64,000 nt of DNA from an uncultured Pelagibacteraceae bacterium. GTDB taxonomy: Bacteria > Pseudomonadota > Alphaproteobacteria > Pelagibacterales > Pelagibacteraceae. The notes beneath the pieces are model-generated. The model was not told where the DNA came from. It saw only the letters and a list, made by a program, of their open reading frames with translations, and searched no databases. Below are positions 56,825 to 57,348 of this stretch, piece after piece (positions within the stretch are counted from its first letter, which is position 1; each line of letters opens with the position of its first letter). Both the position numbers and the translations under genes were made by a program. The DNA lies in the NCBI GenBank assembly GCA_902593905.1, contig CACJKF010000001.1, positions 186,001 through 250,000 on the forward strand, given 5' to 3'.

Positions 56825-56980
56825 TTATTTGTCTATATCATTTTTTTCATTTTTTCGTATTAGAAATCCTGAACCTATCCCCACTGCAATGGCTGATATA
56901 ATCCAAGAGTACTCTTGTTCGCTGAAAAGAACTAATAGGCCAAAACCTATAATGATTACACCTAAAAGCTTATTATCCAT
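56825..56980 (-). CDS. 51-residue two-helix membrane protein
   Basis: The ATG at 56980 opens MDNKLLGVIIIGFGLLVLFS, then EQEYSWIISAIAVGIGSGFL, ending in the polar IRKNEKNDIDK. Two hydrophobic helices fit a small integral membrane protein. The frame ends 2 bases before the quinone reductase start, which supports translation. Its first base also lies in the -35 of the divergent structured-RNA promoter. The function is unknown. Confidence 0.6.
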   Translation of the reverse strand: MDNKLLGVIIIGFGLLVLFSEQEYSWIISAIAVGIGSGFLIRKNEKNDIDK

Positions 56981-57007
56981 TGACAAATATAAACCTTATA
57001 TTAAAGT
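56980..57007 (+). promoter_or_regulatory. Promoter of the structured leader and 63-residue protein
   Basis: TTGACA (56980-56985) is a perfect -35. After 16 bases TAAAGT (57002-57007) can serve as -10. Transcription would begin around 57013-57014, directly before the first hairpin (57015). The -35 overlaps the start codon of the divergent 51-residue gene. Confidence 0.5.
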
Positions 57008-57014
57008 TTACTAA

Positions 57015-57079
57015 CCCATCTGTCATGGGAAAAAAGACTCGGCATTCGACATGCCGGACCTATAAAAGGTTGCAAAGTC
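57015..57079 (+). ncRNA. Structured 5' leader with a three-way-junction shape
   Basis: Four stems can be drawn. They are: hairpin CCCAT/ATGGG (57015-57029); closing stem GACT (57036-57039) with AGTC (57076-57079); inside it CGGCAT/ATGCCG (57040-57056); and ACCT/AGGT (57058-57070). A strong ribosome binding site (AAAGGAG) and the ATG at 57102 follow. GACTC could instead pair with the GAGTT that overlaps the ribosome binding site, so two exclusive folds exist. The sequence matches no riboswitch class that I know; the fold is drawn by eye. Confidence 0.5.
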
Positions 57080-57101
57080 GGTAGAAATGAAAGGAGTTGC
57101 T

Positions 57102-57293
57102 ATGAATAGATTTAGCAAACTGTATGGAAATTCTGCCGTTAAAAAAGCTGAGCAGAAACTCTCAATGCAGTTAAGTAAAAACCAAAGAGCCCCCGAGGCT
57201 AACGCTAATGGAACGGCTGGTTATATGGTTAAAAACGGAAAAAATTCCGGAAAAATTTTGAAGCATTTAAAAACTGATAAAAATCAGCTTTAA
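57102..57293 (+). CDS. 63-residue basic protein, unknown function
   Basis: The ATG at 57102 is preferred because AAAGGAG lies 6 bases before it; an earlier ATG at 57087 sits upstream of that site. The protein starts MNRFSKLYGNSAVKKAEQKL and has a glycine/asparagine-rich middle (ANANGTAGYMVKNGKNSGK) and a basic end. No cysteine, signal peptide or membrane segment is present, and I know no family. Its own promoter, structured leader, strong ribosome binding site and 3' hairpin suggest high, regulated expression. Confidence 0.7.
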   Translation: MNRFSKLYGNSAVKKAEQKLSMQLSKNQRAPEANANGTAGYMVKNGKNSGKILKHLKTDKNQL

Positions 57294-57304
57294 ACTTTTA
57301 TAGG

Positions 57305-57326
57305 GTGGGGACTTTAAAATCCCCAC
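57305..57326 (+). terminator. Hairpin after the 63-residue gene
   Basis: GTGGGGA (57305-57311) pairs with TCCCCAC (57320-57326) around an 8-base loop, 12 bases after the stop. It is GC-rich for this genome. The following bases TCAAGTCTTTAAT give only a weak T-run, so it may work as a terminator or as a 3' stabilising hairpin. Confidence 0.6.
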
Positions 57327-57348
57327 TCAAGTCTTTAATATCCCCTCA

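Follow-up and report, generated by a model that had tools for sequence, protein, structure and literature searches.

The window, a 64-kb stretch of DNA from a small SAR11-type (Pelagibacteraceae) genome bin of 848 kb (G000), contains at 56980–57328 a compact unit in which a TTGACA hexamer, a leader of ~90 nt, a ribosome binding site, a 63-codon ORF and a GC-rich hairpin follow one another, with rlmN coming next. The features of this unit are as follows.

56980–56985, plus strand: −35-like hexamer TTGACA of the unit promoter (10/12 promoter match; hexamer kept in most same-genus leaders)
57015–57029, plus strand: unit 1 hairpin CCCAU/AUGGG (57015–57019 with 57025–57029), loop CUGUC at 57020–57024 (inner four pairs in 109–110 of 110 leaders)
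57036–57038, plus strand: unit 1 pseudoknot tail GAC, partner loop GUC at 57022–57024 (GTC/GAC, CAC/GTG, CTC/GAG; 110/110 leaders)
57040–57056, plus strand: unit 2 hairpin (P2) CGGCAU/AUGCCG, loop UCGAC at 57046–57050 (eight stem variants, paired in 110/110)
57058–57070, plus strand: optional hairpin within unit 2 (P3) ACCU/AGGU (ACCT/AGGT becomes ACTC/GAGT in relatives; absent from most other lineages)
57077–57081, plus strand: unit 2 pseudoknot tail GUCGG, partner loop UCGAC (covarying loop/tail pairs)
57090–57096, plus strand: Shine-Dalgarno sequence AAAGGAG (GAAAGGAG nearly invariant among same-class leaders)
57102–57293, plus strand: 63-codon ORF encoding a basic protein of family F1, pI 10.3 (motif NGTxGYxIKxGxNxGK)
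57303–57328, plus strand: GC-rich, terminator-like 3′ hairpin without a strong U run (−16.3 kcal/mol, z −2.2)

The promoter, ribosome site, gene and 3′ hairpin had all been called in an initial annotation made from the sequence of the window, and each of them stands. Both strands of the 3′ hairpin are changed in relatives (GTGGGG/CCCCAC versus GAGGGG/CCCCTC). A single-sequence search found homologues of the 63-aa ORF in 82 of 197 genomes of the family; with a profile, the count across the order was 217 of 297 genomes, including 126 of 150 near-complete ones. The ORF is therefore taken to be a real gene. Its product matched no Pfam or NCBIfam family. It does fall within the family of PHROG 32989, a group of phage proteins with no assigned function (six members, E 1e-13 to 4.5e-7), whose members occur in many pelagiphages, several of them adjoining DNA maturase genes. 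The AlphaFold model of the protein is weak (pLDDT 67, pTM 0.33), with one N-terminal helix and little else. On the minus strand, a divergent ORF for a 53-aa membrane protein (56825–56986) has its start overlapping the promoter region, an arrangement conserved in close relatives. Read on the same strand, the unit 2 hairpin and an A run (57040–57056) resemble an intrinsic terminator, a likeness that is probably incidental.

Comparison of 110 distinct leaders showed that the leader (57013–57104) consists of two H-type pseudoknots in series, each hairpin loop pairing with a tail just downstream. The last 3–4 loop bases of hairpin 1 (CCAU-loop-AUGG) pair with GNNN directly before hairpin 2, and the 4–5-base loop of hairpin 2 pairs with a tail located after an AAAG run and shortly before the ribosome site. 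Each unit is made up of a 4–6-bp stem, a 4–5-nt loop, an A-rich strand and the loop-pairing tail. An insert of the P3 type is found in unit 2 in the window's genus, in both units at two loci (L031 and L032) and in neither unit in most other lineages.

Because MAFFT misplaced the 4–5-nt loops and the leaders that lack P3, helices were counted also by explicit parsing, with a parser that chooses the best tail downstream of the A-rich run. By this count, all 110 leaders keep the first three pairs of both pseudoknots, and the fourth pair is kept in 93 and 105. Twelve distinct loop/tail combinations occur in unit 2, with a mean of 3.9 pairs that falls to 1.5 when tails are exchanged between leaders. 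These include CUAC/GUAG, GUAC/GUAC, CGAC/GUCG, UCGC/GCGA, UCGC/GCGG, GUCC/GGGC, GUCC/GGAC, CCAC/GUGG, CAGC/GCUG, CAUC/GAUG and GAUC/GAUC, as well as the three-pair GCC/GGC. In the 22-sequence alignment of the short class (A6), standard pairs fill 99.2% of the pair cells, and 8 of 17 pairs vary on both sides. Double changes occur in 59 cells, compared with 20.9 in shuffles; controls with slid partners are 25–32% paired and show no double change. A second alignment (A3) gave a similar picture. The folding energy of the leader is unremarkable (z −1.1, with 29 of 200 shuffles as good) and weak on its own, so the case for the fold rests on covariation. From this comparative record, the leader is almost certainly a conserved structured RNA built of tandem pseudoknots, and very probably a cis-regulatory one.

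The initial annotation had proposed an undescribed structured RNA leading a small, probably regulatory gene, which holds, and had drawn it as a three-way junction, which does not, the fold being that of the tandem pseudoknots. The first hairpin, P2 and P3 were correctly placed, and the covariation that it had named beforehand as a test proved strong for both pseudoknots as well as for P2 and P3. Two pairings were absent from it, namely UCGAC (57046–57050) with GUCGG (57077–57081) and GUC (57022–57024) with GAC (57036–57038). In their place it had a stem P1, GACT (57036) with AGTC (57076), and a pairing of GACTC with GAGTT over the ribosome site, the two excluding each other as a translational switch. 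The complementarity exists in the window, and nested minimum-energy folding of the isolated leader yields a structure with GACUC:GAGUU, but in close relatives both helices are disrupted, whereas the pseudoknot pairs covary. P1 becomes GACG..AGTC at L009, GACT..AGTA at L020 and GACT..AG-CG at L024, and the mask is lost through GACGA, GACAA, GACGC or GACAC on one side and GAGAT or GAGCT on the other. With neither helix conserved, a junction that switches in this way has next to no chance of being the correct structure. The nested minimum-energy fold was also rejected as the true structure, since it opens P2 and is not significant.

The tandem-pseudoknot leader is a previously uncatalogued RNA, missing from Rfam 15. 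A match to a known family had been the other test named for the leader, and neither the window leader nor the short-class leader has an Rfam 15 match at the gathering score or a credible one up to E 10; across scans of the window, the short-class leader and relatives, the only family found was RF01739, at L054 and L055. No description of such a leader turned up in the open literature searched. With a covariance model of the short class, 54 of the 297 order genomes gave a match at E 0.01, a few of which are weak and due to chance. Strong matches cover family f2 and genus g9, and a class-wide search added three genomes of a further family (f10). Matches to R1 in the ribB region and other coding sequence (L190–L196, 25–34 bits) and to R2 at L207 were weak and were taken as chance. 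A degenerate pattern, which fixes unit 1 as CAC/GTG and leaves unit 2 positions 2–4 free, located 30 viral contigs as well as 66 loci in named genomes, the latter from Pelagibacteraceae, from HIMB114, from single-cell genomes of alphaproteobacteria and from a single bin assigned to Methylophilales; leaders found via the protein are free of this pattern bias. The F1 gene and leader in the Methylophilales bin (UBA4017, L210) closely resemble those of SAR11 genus g12, and the bin is probably contaminated with a mis-binned SAR11 or phage contig.

Where the contig continues, the RNA is followed by a ribosome site and a small ORF. These ORFs are nearly always of 33–70 residues and basic, with pI values of about 10 to 12 in the examples computed; a 78-aa ORF follows the RNA at L303. 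They fall into at least four small-protein families without sequence relation to one another:

F1: NGTxGYxIKxGxNxGK; includes the window's 63-aa protein
F2: ...VKIPxxTKRVWDxSENRWGYK; 38–46 aa
F3: ...RNSRPRAKDNVINPNQKGI; 48 aa, HIMB114
F4: ...HWxLARFSxLRR; 33–37 aa, viral

Many phage relatives of F1, F2 and F3 have neither this leader nor a glutamine riboswitch detected upstream, so the small proteins may have a wider role and need not be specific to nitrogen. Such relatives (L083–L088, L430–L589) are frequent among the tiny genes of marine phages.

Most Pelagibacterales genomes carry a single copy of the gene, of A-type or B-type. B-type relatives (L059–L081, L118–L121, L126–L130 and L134–L151; about 190 bases upstream of the start) occur in many Pelagibacterales, directly after an IscA/ErpA-like gene (ending ...ERCGCGESFKV) and with an apparently near-leaderless promoter, and in several genomes with the operator-like repeat GCATATCnGnATTGC. 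The A-type genes of genus g5 (L048, L051, L045 and L056) lack tandem pseudoknots; near their promoter lies the palindrome GCATATCTGATATGC or a variant of it. This palindrome was considered as a third leader type or pseudoknot, but is more likely a palindromic DNA operator that the g5 genes have in common with the B-type genes; this suggests that the g5 genes are under transcriptional control by the same putative regulator as the B-type genes.

A link to a known sensor came from the targets. In two genomes (G012 and G040), an F1 gene lies behind a glutamine riboswitch (RF01739; 60.2 bits against a cut-off of 35). These two loci, L054 and L055, are the sole RF01739 matches in 297 Pelagibacterales genomes, with none in the window or in its genome. 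A core-pattern search of viral contigs returned at least 120 glutamine-riboswitch loci, and Rfam confirmed RF01739 at all 17 viral loci submitted. Tiny ORFs downstream of the viral riboswitches listed include members of F1 and F3, and among the matches listed these genes stand behind RF01739 in about 20 viral contigs. Profiles of F1 and F3 built solely from pseudoknot-controlled proteins detected, among the matches listed, 17 glutamine-riboswitch-led proteins for F1 (E 5e-25 to 1e-16, two of them from L054 and L055) and 5 for F3 (6e-13 to 7e-5), with no matches to shuffled controls. The tandem-pseudoknot RNA and the known glutamine riboswitch have these two small-protein families in common.

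In a rough tree, the L054 and L055 proteins group with viral RF01739-led proteins, and no synteny was found between host RF01739-led and pseudoknot-led F1 copies. Replacement of one leader by the other in place within genus g12 is unsupported by synteny; together these results argue for sharing of modules, and whole RNA–gene modules probably move between viruses and hosts. At several viral loci the glutamine riboswitch is present in two tandem copies. Five viral loci (L306, L315, L338, L343 and L365) have it near freshwater-2 (RF02980) and/or manA (RF01745) RNAs, in arrays of regulatory RNAs and tiny ORFs. At L347 and L390, a glutamine riboswitch and an F1 gene lie within about 350 bases of a permuted tmRNA, an arrangement likened to that of phage Melnitz (PMC9004378).

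The new RNA resembles known elements in setting more than in structure. Glutamine-I (the glnA motif, RF01739) likewise leads tiny ORFs in marine bacteria and viruses, is often in tandem and precedes F1 and F3, but has a three-way junction with a loop-E motif and a CGUUCA...ACGGAAGUAG core; neither feature is present in the window RNA, which the RF01739 model does not match. Glutamine-II (the downstream-peptide motif, RF01704) is a pseudoknot leader of marine small-peptide genes that occurs in multiple copies (PMC6316151), but its pseudoknot topology and conserved core are different (PMC6698751), and it matched neither the window leader nor the short-class leader. The pseudoknot unit has no sequence likeness to either glutamine aptamer. 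The tandem SAM-II/SAM-V riboswitch of Pelagibacter also places H-type pseudoknots with an A-rich strand upstream of a SAR11 gene, but differs in sequence, controls methionine genes and gave no Rfam match. The SAR11 motifs of Meyer et al. 2009 (PMC2704228) are likewise structured leaders or intergenic RNAs, found by GC content and covariation, but by their descriptions none stands before an F1 gene or forms tandem pseudoknots; SAR11_0636 lies between other genes and has the form of a bulged three-stem junction (PMC2704228).

As the RNA precedes genes for tiny proteins that are placed elsewhere under RF01739, it probably represents a novel type of switch responding to glutamine (nitrogen). The leader has what generally marks a riboswitch, a conserved aptamer-like fold with covariation in a 5′ leader. 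In the proposed mechanism, the two pseudoknots just upstream of the ribosome site would sense nitrogen sufficiency, with L-glutamine as the candidate ligand, and so set the translation of the small basic protein, which would inhibit or modulate a nitrogen enzyme stoichiometrically, in the way that the cyanobacterial IF7 and IF17 act on glutamine synthetase, here in bacteria that lack GlnE. In cyanobacteria, glutamine riboswitches activate expression when glutamine binds, with IF17 and DUF4278 small proteins among their targets (PMC6316151). IF7 and IF17 (DUF4278 for IF17) are tiny basic proteins like those studied here, with no sequence likeness to the 63-aa protein in Pfam or NCBIfam. GlnE was absent from 28/28 genomes tested, with positive controls in Escherichia coli and Caulobacter, which makes inhibitor proteins a plausible restraint on glutamine synthetase. 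PII is absent from the tested genomes of the window's genus and from g4. It is present in g5, g12, f2, f10 and one of two g9 genomes, and its presence in several lineages that carry the RNA counts against the proposal. In a nested energy model, occupancy of the pseudoknots brings no general change in access to the Shine-Dalgarno sequence, which rises in only 9 of 110 leaders; that of the window leader is predicted to be mostly paired with or without occupancy.

We infer the ligand, the switching direction and the protein target, and our confidence differs among the parts. That the RNA senses some nitrogen-related signal is moderately probable; for glutamine itself as the ligand, the balance falls just short of even. 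That the small protein is a glutamine-synthetase inhibitor is rather unlikely. A tandem riboswitch for nitrogen sufficiency, with L-glutamine as the leading candidate and a small protein that modulates a nitrogen enzyme, is the best explanation overall, and we would give it an even chance.

Other readings of the same RNA were weighed against it. Riboswitches often fold as compact H-type pseudoknots with A-rich strands (SAM-II/V, preQ1, guanidine-III; PMC6698751), and the RNA could instead be a tandem riboswitch for another small molecule such as glutamate, 2-oxoglutarate, an amino acid or a nucleotide signal. Its overlap in targets with the glutamine riboswitch would then arise from both RNAs reading out growth or nitrogen status. 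We consider this unlikely, given that two separate protein families are common specifically with RF01739. A site for a trans-acting RNA-binding protein that represses translation of the small protein is less likely again. The sequences of loops and tails are free to vary within a constant architecture, as in protein sites recognized by shape, and two copies could bind a dimer. Leader pseudoknots are bound by gp32 and S15. Regulation of this kind by one encoded protein is nonetheless improbable, as the RNA precedes at least four unrelated proteins and relatives of the protein occur without the RNA; a host regulator common to all the targets could still act in this way. A constitutive structured leader that enhances mRNA stability or translation and does not switch has a very low probability: no conserved mask of the ribosome site was found, as such a leader would have it, but the strict two-pseudoknot geometry across two alphaproteobacterial groups and viruses exceeds the needs of a stability hairpin, and the targets are shared with a known riboswitch.

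SAR11 are among the most abundant bacteria on Earth and are reported to lack the usual nitrogen regulators. In its fullest and more tentative form, the nitrogen-sufficiency reading would make the leader a third, structurally distinct class of glutamine riboswitch, composed of two tandem H-type pseudoknots of 25–35 nt, that may serve as a nitrogen sensor of part of SAR11 and some marine viruses and turn on small inhibitors of nitrogen assimilation exchanged between host and phage. If true, this would introduce an RNA class that Rfam 15 does not contain and point to a trade in nitrogen-control modules between phages and hosts, and an RNA sensor with a small-protein output would be part of the answer to how SAR11 cells sense and respond to nitrogen sufficiency.
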